From Sphingomonas sp. (GTDB taxonomy: Bacteria > Pseudomonadota > Alphaproteobacteria > Sphingomonadales > Sphingomonadaceae): a DNA stretch of 56,610 bases. Position numbers and translations under genes: made by a program. Of the stretch, positions 46,031-56,610 are shown piece by piece. Every line of letters starts with the position of its first letter. The stretch's first letter is position 1. The notes under the pieces were generated by a model. It saw only the letters and a program-made list of their open reading frames with translations. It ran no database searches and was not told where the DNA came from. The stretch is from the NCBI GenBank assembly GCA_025980335.1, contig JAICXO010000002.1, positions 1 to 56,610 on the forward strand. The letters run 5' to 3'.

Positions 46031-46104
46031 TTTCACGCAAAGGCGCTAAGGCGCGAAGAGATCGAGCAGAATCCTTCTTCGCGCCTTCGCGCCTTCGCGT
46101 GAAA
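46031..46104. repeat. TTTCACGC-AAGGCGCGAAG palindromic repeat, copy 1
   Basis: Two arms of about 30 bases (46031-46059 and 46075-46104) in inverted orientation around a loop of about 15 bases. Each arm reads TTTCACGC followed by repeats of AAGGCGCGAAG; they differ at roughly two positions. The element lies between divergent rimO and ugd. A related element is at 54173-54241. Confidence 0.85.
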
Positions 46105-46184
46105 TCTCTTGCTCTTCTTGCCAGCTTGGCCGCTGCAATTGCGGTCGCTATGGCGCGGCGTTCCTGCAGAATGATGGAGTCAGC

Positions 46185-51947: not shown

Positions 51948-53003
51948 ATGGATTTTAATCTCTTCAACTCGTTGGGCGCTCGCCAGATGGCGATCGACGT
52001 CGGAACCGCGAACACCGTGGTGTACGTGCCGGGCGAAGGAATCGTCCTCAACGAACCGTCCGTCGTCGCGCTCGAGGTCGTCAATGGAGTCGAGCGCGTT
52101 CGAGCGGTCGGCAGCGACGCCAAGATCCTGATGGGCAAGACGGCGGACAACATCCGCACATACCGGCCGCTGATCGACGGGGTGATCAACGACCTCGACC
52201 TCACCGAGCAGATGATCAAGCATTTCATCGCCAAGGCGACTGGAGGCCCGAACCTTCTGTCGCGAGGGCCGGAGATCGTCGTCGGCGTGCCGTCGGCTTC
52301 GACCGAAGTCGAACGGCGCGCGATCCACGCGGCAGCGATCAACGCAGGGGGACGCGACGTCTGGCTGATCGAGGAGCCGCTGGCCGCGGCAATCGGCGCC
52401 GGGCTGCCGATCGAGCAGCCGATCGGGTCGATGGTGGTGGATATCGGCGGCGGCACCACGGAGGTCGCGATCATCGCGCTCAAGCAGCCCACCTACAGCA
52501 CCTCCGAACGCGTCGGCGGCGACAAGATGGACGAGGCGATCGCGTCGTACGTGCGGATGAAGCACAATGTCGAAATCGGGCCGGTTTCGGCCGAGCGGAT
52601 CAAGAAGGAGATCGGATCCGCCTCCTCGACACCCGAGGGGATGAACATCGTCGGGCACGTGGGCGGACGCGACGTCACGGTTGGCAATTTATGCGAGATC
52701 GAGCTGAGCCAGGCGGAGATGGCCGAGGCGCTGCACGACGTGGTGCAGCAGATCGTCGAAACCGTCTCCCGCGCACTCGGGCACGCCGGAGCGGAAATCG
52801 CGTCCGACATCATCAACCAGGGCCTGGTCATCACCGGTGGAGGAGCGCTGCTGACGAACATCGACACGGTGCTTCGCGATCAGACCGGGCTTCCGGTCCG
52901 GGTGGCCGACGAGCCGTTGACCTGCGTCGCATTGGGTGCAGCGCGCGCGCTCCAGGATGCGGAATTCAGAACCGAGCTGCACGCCGCCTCACGCGTGATG
53001 TGA
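51948..53003 (+). CDS. MreB-like actin-fold protein, orphan paralogue
   Basis: 351 residues from ATG 51948 (TTG at 51945 adjoins it). The actin-fold nucleotide site is complete: MAIDVGTANTVVYVPGEGIVLNEPSVVA (phosphate 1), VVDIGGGTTEVAIIALK (phosphate 2) and GLVITGGGALLTNIDTVL (adenosine). It lacks a clear N-terminal amphipathic membrane helix. No mreC, mreD or pbp2 follows, so this is not the canonical rod operon and is most likely a second, divergent MreB copy. Role in shape or filament assembly is inferred. Confidence 0.9.
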   Translation: MDFNLFNSLGARQMAIDVGTANTVVYVPGEGIVLNEPSVVALEVVNGVERVRAVGSDAKILMGKTADNIRTYRPLIDGVINDLDLTEQMIKHFIAKATGGPNLLSRGPEIVVGVPSASTEVERRAIHAAAINAGGRDVWLIEEPLAAAIGAGLPIEQPIGSMVVDIGGGTTEVAIIALKQPTYSTSERVGGDKMDEAIASYVRMKHNVEIGPVSAERIKKEIGSASSTPEGMNIVGHVGGRDVTVGNLCEIELSQAEMAEALHDVVQQIVETVSRALGHAGAEIASDIINQGLVITGGGALLTNIDTVLRDQTGLPVRVADEPLTCVALGAARALQDAEFRTELHAASRVM

Positions 53004-53041
53004 GGGCGCCGGCCAGGCCCGGGCGAGCGGCTTGTGCAGGT

Positions 53042-53950
53042 CTAAGTATAGCAGCCGTTGCCGCTGCCTTGGGCCGGGTCGTGCGAGTCGCCGCAAACTA
53101 GTTTCCGGGCTGCCCCTGCGCCGGGGGAACCGTCACTCGGATCACGGCTGCCATCGAGCTCGGCCTCGAGCTCGGCGAAGAAGGTGATGCGCTCGGCTTC
53201 TTCGGCGGCTTTCATGTCCGACAGCTCGGCTTCGCGAGCGGCATCGAGGAGCGCGCTTTCGTCCCCGCTGCATTCGCGGGCATAATCTTCGTCGCTCCAG
53301 TGGCCCCGCTCGTATCCGGTGAACCCTTCGGGCGGCGGGAAATTGGTCCACCAGCCGCCGTCCTCCTCTTCTTCCTGCCACACACGGTCGGTGCCGAAGG
53401 TCGAATCCGACAGGTCTTCGTCGTCAAACGAGGGGTTGTCGGAAGTGTCGGAAGTGTCGGAATCCAGCGTCGCGAGGGCGGCGCAGAGATCCTCTTCCGA
53501 GCCGGTGCGCAAGGCCTTGAGCGCAAGCTTCGCATCGAAAGTGCGGCGCGGCCCGGGGCTGCGCGGCTCCTCGGCGAGCTTGTCGAGGCGGCGCAGCATG
53601 GCAAAAGCGAGCCGGTTGTCGGTGTAGCGCCGCTCCCCGACCAGCACGCCGTCGCGGTAGAGACGGTCGACCGAGCCCGCGATCGAATCTTCCATCAGCC
53701 GGTCGGCGAGGCGGTGGCGGGCGTGATGGCGCGCGGAGTCGCAGGCGGCGGCGAAGAGGGGATCGGTCCTCAAATGCTCGTAGATTGTGTCGCGGTGCTT
53801 GCCGACCGCGCGGCAGGCGGCGGTGACGGTGCCGGTTTCCGCCAGCGCGTCGCAGAAGCGGGCCTTGAGCTCGGGTGTGAACGGGCCGTAATCGCCGGGG
53901 GTTGGATTGACGGGGGCTATCTCTGTTGGTGATGTCGAGTCATGTTCCAT
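53042..53950 (-). CDS. HTH-containing protein of a sphingomonad-type family
   Basis: 302 residues from ATG 53950; the frame is open upstream. The N-terminal half has a helix-turn-helix like terminase small subunits (FCDALAETGTVTAACRAVGKHRDTIYEHL), then AACDSARHHARHRLADRLMEDSIAGSVDRLYRDGVLVGERRYTDNRLAFAMLRRLDKLAEE, which I recall in many sphingomonad proteins of unknown function. The C-terminal half is unusually acidic (SDTSDTSDNPSFDDEDLSD, EEEEDGGWW). Probably a DNA-binding protein; a phage origin is possible but no other phage gene is near. Confidence 0.75.
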   Translation of the reverse strand: MEHDSTSPTEIAPVNPTPGDYGPFTPELKARFCDALAETGTVTAACRAVGKHRDTIYEHLRTDPLFAAACDSARHHARHRLADRLMEDSIAGSVDRLYRDGVLVGERRYTDNRLAFAMLRRLDKLAEEPRSPGPRRTFDAKLALKALRTGSEEDLCAALATLDSDTSDTSDNPSFDDEDLSDSTFGTDRVWQEEEEDGGWWTNFPPPEGFTGYERGHWSDEDYARECSGDESALLDAAREAELSDMKAAEEAERITFFAELEAELDGSRDPSDGSPGAGAARKLVCGDSHDPAQGSGNGCYT

Positions 53951-54144
53951 GAACCATATTGGAACATGGAAGAGGGGCTGTAGGAAAGACTTTTGTTCTT
54001 CGGCCATCTTCGATTGCGAGCCGCCGAGCAGAACTGAAGGAAAGGGGAGCAGCCCTTGCACCCCGGCATGGCGGCATGCGGCTGCTTCTGTCGAAGAGAC
54101 GGCGAGAACCGGCCGGACCCGAGCGGGGCGGGTGGCCTGGGGGT

Positions 54145-54175
54145 GTCACGGGATTCACTCCCGTGACGGTTTTTT
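54145..54175 (+). terminator. Intrinsic terminator with no obvious upstream gene
   Basis: A perfect 8-bp stem GTCACGGG (54145-54152) / CCCGTGAC (54160-54167), 7-base loop, two G and six T. It points in the plus direction; on the minus strand there is no T tract. The nearest upstream plus-strand CDS is the MreB-like gene, ending at 53003. Confidence 0.75.
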
Positions 54176-54241
54176 CACACGAAGGCACGAAGGAGACGAA
54201 GGACACGAGGGGTTTCATGCGAAGGCGCGAAGGCGCGAAGG
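54173..54241. repeat. TTTCAC(G)C-GAAGGCGCGAAGG repeat, copy 2 (two direct units)
   Basis: Two direct units starting at 54173 and 54213, each opening TTTCA-xxC-GAAGG and built of AAGGCGCGAAGG-like subrepeats. The second unit is nearly identical to the arms of the palindrome at 46031-46104; the first has diverged. It overlaps the T tract of the terminator before it. Confidence 0.8.
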
Positions 54242-54332
54242 TGACGGTACACGGGGACGAACATCGGCGGGGCTGGGTGGCGCGCTCGAGCGTTTGGATG
54301 CCGCCCTACGGACGCCGAAGCGGAGGTGAGCG

Positions 54333-54635
54333 ATGCATTTGTCCAATCAGAGCCTGCTGGTCATCATCATTGTCGGGATCGTCGCGGGCTGGCTCGCCGG
54401 CAGGGTGGTGCGCGGCGCGGGGTTCGGGATCCTCGGCGACCTGCTGGTCGGGATCATCGGCGCGTTCATCGGCAACTGGCTGCTGCCGCGGATCGGCGCG
54501 CACCTGGGCACCGGAATCGTCAGCGCCTTCGTCAACGCGGCGATCGGCGCAATCGTGCTGCTGCTGGTGATCCGGCTGCTGACGGGAGGATTGTGGGGAG
54601 GCGGCTGGCGCGGAGGGTGGCGGAGAAGGTGGTGA
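54333..54635 (+). CDS. GlsB/YeaQ/YmgE family membrane protein
   Basis: 100 residues. Three TM helices with the glycine-rich signature LVIIIVGIVAGWLAGRVVRGAGFGILGDLLVGIIGAFIGNWLLP, as in the transglycosylase-associated/YeaQ family, and a Trp/Arg/Gly-rich cytoplasmic tail (WGGGWRGGWRRRW). The family is stress-induced in several bacteria but has no defined activity. ATG 54333 follows GGAGGTGAGCG. Confidence 0.9.
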   Translation: MHLSNQSLLVIIIVGIVAGWLAGRVVRGAGFGILGDLLVGIIGAFIGNWLLPRIGAHLGTGIVSAFVNAAIGAIVLLLVIRLLTGGLWGGGWRGGWRRRW

Positions 54636-54676
54636 GGGGAATTCCTTTACCGCCAGCGCAGTCGCACCTTCGGACC

Positions 54677-56152
54677 TCACGAAAGCAGTTCAGAGAAGCG
54701 GGTTTCGATTAACCTGCTTACATTCGATCGGCGATGCGCAGCAATTTCACCAAGCATATAAATGATGTCGTCATCATCGACGGCGACTACGAACCCCTTT
54801 CCTGCCTGCGCGATGTCTTTGCATCGCGCCAAGATGGCCTGCCGGTCTTTTGAACTACGATGAAGTAACAATCCGAATTGTCCCCTTAGGTTACTAAACC
54901 GCATAGCGAGCTGATCAAATTCCGGATTCTTGGGGTCGTCAAAGTAGTTCTTGCACTCCACCATGACCCAACGGGCCTTGATATCGCTGTCGTCACGCAA
55001 TCGTCGAAAAAACCCGACGTCGGCTGCGTTTACATAGGTAATATCAATGAGCTTTCTTCGCTCATTGATGGGAGTTTCGATCCGCGGTGCCGTCAATGCG
55101 GGATAAAAGAGGAATTGCAGTATGCCGACAATCAGGCGGTGATAGTCCGAGGCGTGTCTTTTGCCGGCGGGTACCGCTTTGAGCGCGCCGATCAAACCCT
55201 CTGCAAATTCGGGGTCAAAGAACTCCTCATCCCGCTCCTCAAAGATTGCGGCATCCGCAACGGGATTGTGTTTGATAACCGTCTTTTTGAATTTCTCGTA
55301 TTCATTCGGATGTTTGCTTGAAAACTCTACCAAAAACTTTTTCGTTCCAGGGTACTTCTTCTCGATATCTCCGAGAAGAACAACCTTCTCCTCGCGCTTG
55401 CCGCGTTTAATTACACTGACTAGTGGACCGTTAGTGCGGAGCTGTTCTTCTTTGATGAAATTTCTGACGAAAGACTTGTAGTACGATCTTGTACGCTTGC
55501 TGACCGCACCCTGCCATTTCACATAGCGCTTCGGAACGAGCAAAATTGGCGCGTCATCGTAGTAGGGCCGATCCACGTACTTTTGCTTCCATTTCCGATT
55601 CTTTCTGTCCCAGACGAGACCAGACGGCAGACTAGGATGAAGTTGTACGCCGTTCAAATCACATTGCTCAATTGTATAGGTAAGCAGCCTCTCACGAATA
55701 ATGTTCGTCGTGATATCCGAGATTTTGTCAGGTCCTATTCCGTCGATGAACATCGCATAGTCGCTTAGGTCCGTTATCAGACTCGTGCCGATAGCCTTGC
55801 TGCCAGCTAAGCTCCGATAGACCTTCGCGGCTTGACCCGGCCCGAGCCCTCTTCCGGCGGGTTTGCCTTTGGAAACACCTAAGTGAGTGTCATTGGGTTC
55901 CCGCAGAGCAGCAAGCAATTCGACACCACGATGGCGATCGCCTTGACGAATTGCTTCCATCACTGCGTCGAAAAAATCGTAAATATCGTCAGCGCAGTCT
56001 TTGCTGAACTCATCGTCGCCGTCCAGGAAGGTTGAAGGATCAAAATAGAGCGGAAAATCTAGATCGACATCGATATCGACGAAGTCGAGCTCCGGTTGAG
56101 ATTTTCCGATATTGAATGCTTGAGAAAACAGCACCGCTCTGCCTCCCGACAT
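54677..56152 (-). CDS. Orphan PD-(D/E)XK-like nuclease candidate, possibly horizontally acquired
   Basis: 491 residues from ATG 56152 (TTG 56167 also in frame). No signal or TM helix. The N-terminal half has FVDIDVDLDFPLYFDPSTFL, LLAALREPNDTHLGVSKGKPAGRGLGPGQ and FIDGIGPDKISDITTNIIRERLLTYT, resembling an uncharacterised family I recall from mobile islands. The C-terminal half has Asp370 (RRKLIDITYVN), then ARWVMVECKNY with Glu399-x-Lys401 and DQLAMRF after it: the spacing of a restriction-endonuclease-type PD-(D/E)XK site. The gene is clearly AT-richer and more Lys/Asn/Ile-rich than its neighbours, which suggests transfer. Defence role inferred, not shown. Confidence 0.65.
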   Translation of the reverse strand: MSGGRAVLFSQAFNIGKSQPELDFVDIDVDLDFPLYFDPSTFLDGDDEFSKDCADDIYDFFDAVMEAIRQGDRHRGVELLAALREPNDTHLGVSKGKPAGRGLGPGQAAKVYRSLAGSKAIGTSLITDLSDYAMFIDGIGPDKISDITTNIIRERLLTYTIEQCDLNGVQLHPSLPSGLVWDRKNRKWKQKYVDRPYYDDAPILLVPKRYVKWQGAVSKRTRSYYKSFVRNFIKEEQLRTNGPLVSVIKRGKREEKVVLLGDIEKKYPGTKKFLVEFSSKHPNEYEKFKKTVIKHNPVADAAIFEERDEEFFDPEFAEGLIGALKAVPAGKRHASDYHRLIVGILQFLFYPALTAPRIETPINERRKLIDITYVNAADVGFFRRLRDDSDIKARWVMVECKNYFDDPKNPEFDQLAMRFSNLRGQFGLLLHRSSKDRQAILARCKDIAQAGKGFVVAVDDDDIIYMLGEIAAHRRSNVSRLIETRFSELLS

Positions 56153-56209
56153 GGGTGACCCGAGCAATTTTCGTTACTGCTGATCGCGTCAATTCACAAT
56201 CTGCGGCTT

Positions 56210-56610
56210 CTAAGCATCGATCTCTTCCTCATCCACGGCTGACGCCCGGCTCTGAATGAACTCAAATCTTTGCGCCGGATCGCGCCCCATGAGCCGCTCG
56301 ACCAAATCCTTGATCGGCTGGCGGTCTTCGTAGGCGCTGGGGAGGGTTACCTTGAGCATGGACCGCGTGGCCGGGTCCATCGTGGTTTCCTTGAGCTGGT
56401 TCGGGTTCATCTCGCCGAGGCCCTTGAACCGCGAGACCTCGACCTTCTTGCCCTTGAACTCGGTGGCTTCGAGCTCGGCGCGGTGGGCGTCGTCGCGGGC
56501 GTACAGGGTCTTCGCGCCGCTGGTCAGGCGGTAGAGCGGGGGCTGGGCGAGGAACAGGTGGCCGCGGCGGACGAGCTCGGGCATTTCCTGGAAGAAGAAG
56601 GTCATCAGCA
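56210..56610 (-). CDS. parE: DNA topoisomerase IV subunit B, C-terminal part
   Basis: The last about 133 codons; the frame is open through the window end, so the 5' part lies outside. It shows LMTFFFQEMPELVRRGHLFLAQPPLYRL, then EVSRFKGLGEMNPNQLKETTMDP, the type IIA TOPRIM tail. KETTMDP after the KGLGEM motif and the ending QSRASAVDEEEIDA fit ParE better than GyrB. With ParC it decatenates daughter chromosomes. It is followed after 57 bases by the orphan nuclease-like gene. Confidence 0.88.
   Translation of the reverse strand, partial: LMTFFFQEMPELVRRGHLFLAQPPLYRLTSGAKTLYARDDAHRAELEATEFKGKKVEVSRFKGLGEMNPNQLKETTMDPATRSMLKVTLPSAYEDRQPIKDLVERLMGRDPAQRFEFIQSRASAVDEEEIDA

Follow-up and report, generated by a model that had tools for sequence, protein, structure and literature searches.

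A PD-(D/E)XK-type nuclease gene with a conserved N-terminal module, apparently acquired beside parE in Sphingomonas sp.

The gene and its surroundings

The window analysed here, by which we mean the whole stretch of 56,610 nucleotides, is a complete contig (JAICXO010000002.1) of a Sphingomonas sp. assembly, and it ends inside a gene that the initial annotation named parE. The 3' part of this upstream neighbour (56210-56608, minus strand), cut by the window end, serves as a landmark only. Its stop codon lies 57 bp before the ATG of the gene considered here, which is on the same strand and can be read as 491 codons from that ATG (54677-56152, minus strand, ATG at 56152). The longest frame runs a little further (54677-56167, minus strand, 496 residues from a TTG), and the true start is probably neither of these, and is instead the GTG that forms codon 7 of the 491-residue reading (56132-56134, minus strand), which would give a product of 485 residues. 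The GTG at 56134 is favoured over the ATG at 56152 because codon 7 is aligned with methionine in 55 of the 88 rows of the family alignment, and because a Shine-Dalgarno-like GGGAGG, read from the sequence (56142-56147, minus strand), precedes it by 7 nt. Residue numbers throughout are those of the 491-residue reading.

Within the window the nuclease gene sits among ordinary genes, and the sharp contrast in composition with these neighbours, on which the initial annotation had laid weight, is confirmed. Its GC content is 0.498 (over 54677-56167) versus 0.599-0.694 in 39 other open reading frames of the window, mechanically chosen as non-overlapping frames of at least 140 residues, some of which are probably not genes. 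The lowest-GC stretch of 1473 bp in the entire window begins at position 54658, with a z of about -8.7 against overlapping windows, a value that is not a p-value. A search of positions 54200-56610 for flanking repeats of the kind expected from transposon carriage gave none that was convincing, no tRNA was found in the window, and a consensus scan for a promoter or terminator belonging to the gene did no better than shuffles.

The same locus recurs in a second assembly. Contig JAICIT010000284.1 (locus L049), binned with a Bradyrhizobium MAG, agrees with window positions 52007-56608 at 99.76% identity across 4603 bp; the locus and its junction thus occur in two assemblies and cannot be a chimera peculiar to the assembly of this genome. 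L049 is probably mis-binned, or its Bradyrhizobium bin contaminated: L004, from a genome in the same family as the window, agrees in length and locus with L052, from a Sphingomonas echinoides contig that duplicates it. Secondary BLAST matches of L049 also mark short near-identical repeats shared by the window around 54240 and at 46031-46110.

Is this gene a resident or an arrival? A relative is present in three of the 100 genomes searched, the window's own included, and the nuclease gene is absent from all 60 sampled genus mates, some of whose genomes are incomplete. A wider draw at the level of the order gave matches in 15 of 396 genomes, again counting its own; one of these (G208) is probably due to chance, with an E of 7.7e-4 over 49 residues inside an unrelated-looking frame, and another (G294) consists of just two pieces on two contigs. 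At the parE loci of 29 relatives, with flanks of up to 1.5 kb, the DNA of the nuclease gene was not matched, and the gene was not found at tblastn E 1e-6 in the 3.4-10.5 kb behind parE in 16 relatives, across which the site after parE is variable. Homologues that were ordinary core genes beside parE had been named in advance as the observation that would tell against an insertion, and no parE match was obtained in any of 93 family loci (L050-L142). The proposal of a single-gene insertion has therefore held up, with absence from genus mates and from the parE loci of relatives joined by the lack of a recurring partner (see below), and the gene is apparently a horizontally acquired, single-gene accessory insertion.

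An ordinary core or DNA-repair nuclease that belongs with parE was also considered, since the gene lies directly downstream of parE on the same strand. We rejected this reading and give it next to no credence: the gene is missing from the genus mates and from the stretch behind parE in the relatives, the family loci contain no parE, and the composition is foreign. No functional tie between the nuclease gene and parE was found.

The C-terminal nuclease domain

The C-terminal part of the protein (residues ~313-491; 54680-55216, minus strand) is assigned as a PD-(D/E)XK nuclease domain from its conserved residues and its predicted model, with weak support from fold searches. The residues that the initial annotation had picked out are indeed there: D370, predicted to be catalytic (codon 55043-55045, strand 367-375), the ExK motif E399-C400-K401 (54950-54958, strand 395-401), and a glutamine behind it, Q414 (54911-54913, helix 409-416), all encoded on the minus strand. 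All 88 rows taken from two overlapping alignments keep D370, E399, K401 and Q414 without change, which is beyond chance. The string ECKNY formed part of one of the two search seeds; the aspartate, glutamate, lysine and glutamine are kept in all 12 rows that lack a full match to the ExK seed, and in five relatives from an unseeded profile search (L173-L177) the aspartate and the ExK motif are retained, as judged by eye. The aspartate and glutamate are separated by 26-29 residues, and the lysine and glutamine always by 12.

An AlphaFold2 model of the whole protein is of high confidence (pLDDT 93.2, pTM 0.91), with the blocks of the nuclease core at pLDDT 85-98. The predicted core opens with helix 331-349, which is followed by two strands (353-362 and 367-375); next come an additional helix (380-387), a strand (395-401), a helix (409-416) and another strand (426-431). 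An alpha-beta-beta-beta-alpha-beta core with the motif on its central strands is present in this predicted model, and the catalytic residues are located where a PD-(D/E)XK enzyme needs them. A fold without an alpha/beta core around D370, E399 and K401 would have spoken against a nuclease; instead the core is predicted, with a pLDDT of 93.

Comparisons with solved folds and with family models give the assignment weak support. In a Foldseek search of the full model against the PDB, restriction or nicking endonucleases ranked best, led by N.BspD6I and FokI and with EcoT38I and MspJI further down the list; the best E was 4.7e-3, at a TM of about 0.24, no match reached E 0.001 or better, and the list also includes chains that are not nucleases (an RNA polymerase subunit, deaminases and a chaperonin). 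Against viral models, the best match was annotated 'Restriction endonuclease' (probability 1.00, E 8.1e-3). The Pfam model PDDEXK_3, with its cut-off of 22, is just passed by one relative (L007, 22.4) and missed by two others (L009, 17.3; L170, 18.2). On its residues and predicted topology, the window protein falls within the PD-(D/E)XK superfamily, as the initial annotation had supposed, and we infer that the C-terminal domain cuts DNA.

Relatives, carriers and neighbours of the family

The gene is no orphan, despite having been called one: a single scan of GTDB genomes gave 188 stretches that encode relatives, spread over many bacterial phyla. The best 80 loci of the 188 were retained, and their record titles name Proteobacteria, Bacillota, Bacteroidota, Actinomycetota, Chloroflexota, candidate phyla and others. 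IMG/VR contributed 14 loci with relatives, and 41 plasmid records contain them, three of which cover at least 80% of the query. No relative was found in annotated phage records at E 1e-3, and no credible sequence relative in the PDB, either with the single sequence or with the 88-row profile as query. The GTDB and IMG/VR scans together supplied 94 loci, nine of which were left out of alignment A2: L049 (the same locus), L052 (a duplicate of L004), L142 (a fragment), L132 and L141 (near copies), and L063, L078, L113 and L134, whose frames were broken in simple extraction. L004 is likewise absent from A2.

Named families offer few footholds. Pfam has no family for the window protein at E up to 10, at a setting where the HMMER filters drop most matches above about 0.1, and NCBIfam gives a sub-threshold match only. 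Models of the PADLOC candidate PDC-M36A match it by hmmscan on separate stretches (E 1e-37 and 1.8e-18; 128 and 65 bits), and phrog_27295 matches over residues 9-470 (E 3e-79). L007 and L009, genuine PDC-M36A proteins by their scores, reach 787 and 763 bits end to end, versus about 128-133 bits for the window protein, L002 and L128, and the window protein thus belongs to a sister branch of PDC-M36A and is not a member in the narrow sense. A full-text search of an open-access library found no paper that names PDC-M36 and no assay of the family. The PDCs as a class derive from a guilt-by-embedding approach, and validation is pending for most of them (PMC12988326).

A family tree with 15 phylum groups requires 21 label changes, against a minimum of 14 and a mean of 36.6 after shuffling. 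This clustering is far beyond that of shuffled labels, which argues that transfer between phyla is not frequent. The tree does contain some departures from vertical descent, among bins that may be contaminated, yet the clustering by phylum is clear.

Which genes keep company with the family? There is no recurring partner gene, for no neighbour family appears in more than 5 of 87 loci within the flanks, as read from the upper part of a list ranked by how many loci share a family, and no methylase or restriction model is among the 5 PADLOC families matched by the 39 other open reading frames of the window; on both counts the initial annotation had been right. The nearest-neighbour open reading frames match 381 PADLOC families versus 5 for the 39 window controls, a tally of families and not of proteins that shows a direction, not a rate. 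It covers 150 of the 154 neighbour frames, the four longest having been dropped for size. Among the 25 PADLOC models listed are those for restriction of types I, II and IV, Drt2, a CBASS cyclase, HerA, Nhi, AbiO and MADS. Pfam matches of the neighbours range from ResIII, SLFN helicase, Mrr_cat, resolvase, integrase and phage portal to housekeeping families such as tRNA synthetase and ribonucleotide reductase.

Phage genes adjoin the family gene in at least three IMG/VR loci, as a portal gene in L138 and L139 and an anti-repressor-like gene in L140. Ten neighbour proteins from IMG/VR were scanned; three matched a named phage function, two matched PHROGs without an assigned function and five had no match. 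On the L139 contig, a nearby open reading frame of 907 residues (L139:11073-13796) has an NPPF motif, by which it presumably resembles a DNA methylase or type IIG enzyme. Two distinct prophage contigs, L138 and L139, have the start of the family gene 175-182 bp past a P2-type portal gene (phrog_68) that is immediately upstream (L138:3657-4664; L139:6803-7813); L141 is nearly identical to L139. A defence hotspot of P2 is reported to be located between gpA and the portal gene gpQ (PMC9122126). The gpA family PF05840 was found in none of the three prophage records, and for this reason placement in the P2 hotspot is only suggestive.

An accessory gene, mobile carriage and defence genes among the neighbours were all three found for the family. 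The earlier view of the gene as a stand-alone defence protein is borne out as to its standing alone, and as to defence it is supported indirectly, by its position as sister to a PADLOC candidate, by the defence genes among its neighbours and by some prophage and plasmid carriage. The 41 plasmid records and the IMG/VR contigs, at least three with adjoining phage genes, together with the low and scattered frequency, would also suit a nuclease by which mobile elements serve their own ends or their own maintenance, through addiction or the exclusion of competing elements, rather than host defence against phage. We consider this quite improbable, given the restriction and other defence families among the neighbours, the lack of any recurring antitoxin-like partner and the lack of a match to a homing-type Pfam endonuclease family.

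The N-terminal module and its proposed role

As judged from sequence comparison, the N-terminal ~300 residues are a separate and separable conserved module, a point that goes beyond the initial annotation. The module (residues ~7-300; 55253-56134, minus strand) has no Pfam family. Residues 1-300 modelled alone give a confident prediction (pLDDT 91.5) that matches nothing convincingly in the PDB (best E 0.58). An alignment of 112 rows, made up of 88 of the window type, 4 of the PDC-M36A type, 11 of a third type and 9 solo modules, contains six invariant positions (D32, E85, G92, G100, D142 and D146), and D38 is kept in 106 of the 112 rows and is also invariant in two smaller alignments. The codons concerned, all on the minus strand, lie at 56039-56059 (codons 32-38), 55898-55900 (E85) and 55715-55729 (codons 142-146, DKISD). 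Four carboxylates (D32, E85, D142 and D146) are the module's invariant charged residues.

The module travels with more than one nuclease. HHalign relates the N-terminal modules across all types, solo included, at 99.7-100%, with the window-type module at 99.9-100% against each of the other three, and relates the window-type nuclease to that of PDC-M36A at 98.8%. A third subfamily (L179-L185, L187, L191-L193 and L198-L200) has the same N-terminal module with a C-terminus of the form GPVDFK...IExKL...Q, which by motif reading appears PD-(D/E)XK-like and whose last residues are in many cases SASK or something similar. HHalign links neither the window-type nuclease (0.4%) nor the PDC-M36A-type nuclease to this third C-terminal type, so that there is no detectable relation. 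In the frames read, the module is fused to one of these nuclease types, with L196 and L197 lacking one. It occurs in 16 of 398 genomes on the Pseudomonadota side, in 6 of 346 from the phylum of a Streptomyces and in 6 of 348 from the phylum of a Paenibacillus, counts that include the central genome and a few partial or interrupted matches (an interrupted 91-residue frame in G122 of the Pseudomonadota-side draw, a partial match in G955 and an internal stop in G1074).

The module also exists alone. In nine of 12 plasmid records opened (of the 41) it is a complete protein of 283-345 residues; in the other three the protein is longer. The nine hosts are Bacillus, Acinetobacter, Rhodococcus (two), Curtobacterium, Listeria, Lacticaseibacillus, Leuconostoc and Micrococcus, and one of the plasmids is 6.8 kb in size. 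The 4.6-6.8 kb around the nine solo genes encode neither a window-type nor a PDC-M36A-type nuclease half, and a match to the third nuclease type in L169 (E 0.01) is within chance.

The surroundings of the solo genes have features of their own. On three actinobacterial plasmids a conserved protein of 132-138 residues, 60-91% identical between plasmids, precedes the module (L161:2340-2756, L169:2303-2719 and L167:2218-2616) and is perhaps a partner or regulator of it. Restriction-modification or DNA methyltransferase genes lie near three of the nine solo modules (L162:4650-6750, L167:1-1858 and L169:4124-6729). Among the plasmid records in general, one of 15.2 kb (NZ_CP029467.1, L159) matches the search in two places.

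By what means a nuclease that has no methylase distinguishes phage from self is open for most stand-alone PD-(D/E)XK defence nucleases. We lean towards the view that the window gene is an acquired single-gene anti-phage nuclease gated by its N-terminal module, with both the defence role and the gating inferred. The C-terminal domain would cut DNA by means of D370, E399 and K401, and phage infection would be the trigger. The module would restrain the nuclease and then release or direct it once a phage-specific cue occupies a putative site formed by D32, E85, D142 and D146 with the nearly invariant D38. Self-protection would come from this gating and not from a methylase, the same logic that has been described for Shedu in a different protein. 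Gating is proposed because the module is conserved while the nuclease behind it is exchanged; the solo form, which can exist without the window nuclease, speaks against it. The sensor-type role that the initial annotation gave to this half is likewise putative, as the module lacks a recognised fold and also occurs free on plasmids.

A different division of labour would make the module the reader of a modified phage base and the C-terminal domain the nuclease that cuts nearby, as in Type IV-like, modification-dependent restriction. The order of an N-terminal part and a C-terminal PD-(D/E)XK domain, the weak Foldseek matches to MspJI and FokI and the lack of a methylase model among the window frames scanned all suit such an enzyme. 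We nevertheless think it unlikely, considering that no SRA, EVE or YTH base-reader fold is named among the best 50 of 72 PDB matches of the N-terminal model, that the invariant charged residues of the module are carboxylates, and that it is difficult to see an obvious use for a base reader alone on plasmids.

Those same carboxylates, four of them present in every one of the 112 rows and a fifth in 106, would be at home in an enzyme, perhaps a metal-dependent hydrolase or transferase, for which the nuclease is a second, accessory activity. Existence as a solo protein on plasmids, one of them of 6.8 kb, and the exchangeability of the C-terminal nuclease agree with this, whereas the module matches no enzyme fold and no reaction can be named for it; here too we would put the chances low.

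A bolder reading we offer tentatively, as possible though short of probable: the module may have a previously unseen fold and a carboxylate site of its own for catalysis or ligand binding, and may be a portable trigger mounted on at least two nuclease types with no detectable relation to each other, and on plasmids, alone, a self-sufficient effector or a decoy that silences nuclease-bearing versions. If true, this would be the mirror image of Shedu, with one trigger and several nucleases where Shedu has one nuclease and several triggers. A single strongly conserved module that is found on two nuclease types and free on plasmids has a role that can be tested by swapping or separating the parts. 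The defence repertoire would gain with it a domain not yet classified, and it is the part worth pursuing.

How does the window protein compare with known systems? The nearest named family is PDC-M36A, a candidate phage-defence protein of which it represents a sister branch. The two share common ancestry in both parts (HHalign 99.9% for the N-terminal and 98.8% for the C-terminal part), and they differ in that the window protein lacks an end-to-end model match (128 and 65 bits versus 763-787). The 'M' of the label, which we take to mean multi-gene, does not fit the window gene because no partner recurs. Similarity to phrog_27295, a protein family of viruses of prokaryotes, extends over residues 9-470, and that family carries no functional annotation. 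Classical restriction-modification differs in its cognate methyltransferase, which is missing alongside the window gene on the side seen, the contig ending in parE on the other. Type IIS and Type IV enzymes (FokI, Nt.BspD6I, MspJI, Mrr) belong to the same superfamily by motif, and FokI, N.BspD6I and MspJI are among the weak Foldseek matches; however, no solved DNA-recognition domain gives a convincing match to the N-terminal model, and with respect to Mrr the window protein has no Mrr_cat match, its relative L002 reaching only E 0.22.

Shedu (SduA, DUF4263) is described in two reports as a protein that stands alone and combines a PD-(D/E)XK nuclease with a regulatory part at its N-terminus (PMC12904381, PMC12137116). 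According to the first, an N-terminal clamp of Shedu binds DNA ends and thereby lifts the autoinhibition of the nuclease domain (PMC12904381); according to the second, the nuclease is shared and the N-termini are diverse (PMC12137116). The window family does the reverse, sharing its N-terminal module and varying its nuclease, and the window protein has no DUF4263 match in Pfam at E up to 10. The best reading is of a protein that would be Shedu-like in logic without being a Shedu. Stand-alone PD-(D/E)XK nucleases that act in defence have been known before, and to their number the window protein would add one with an unnamed N-terminal module.
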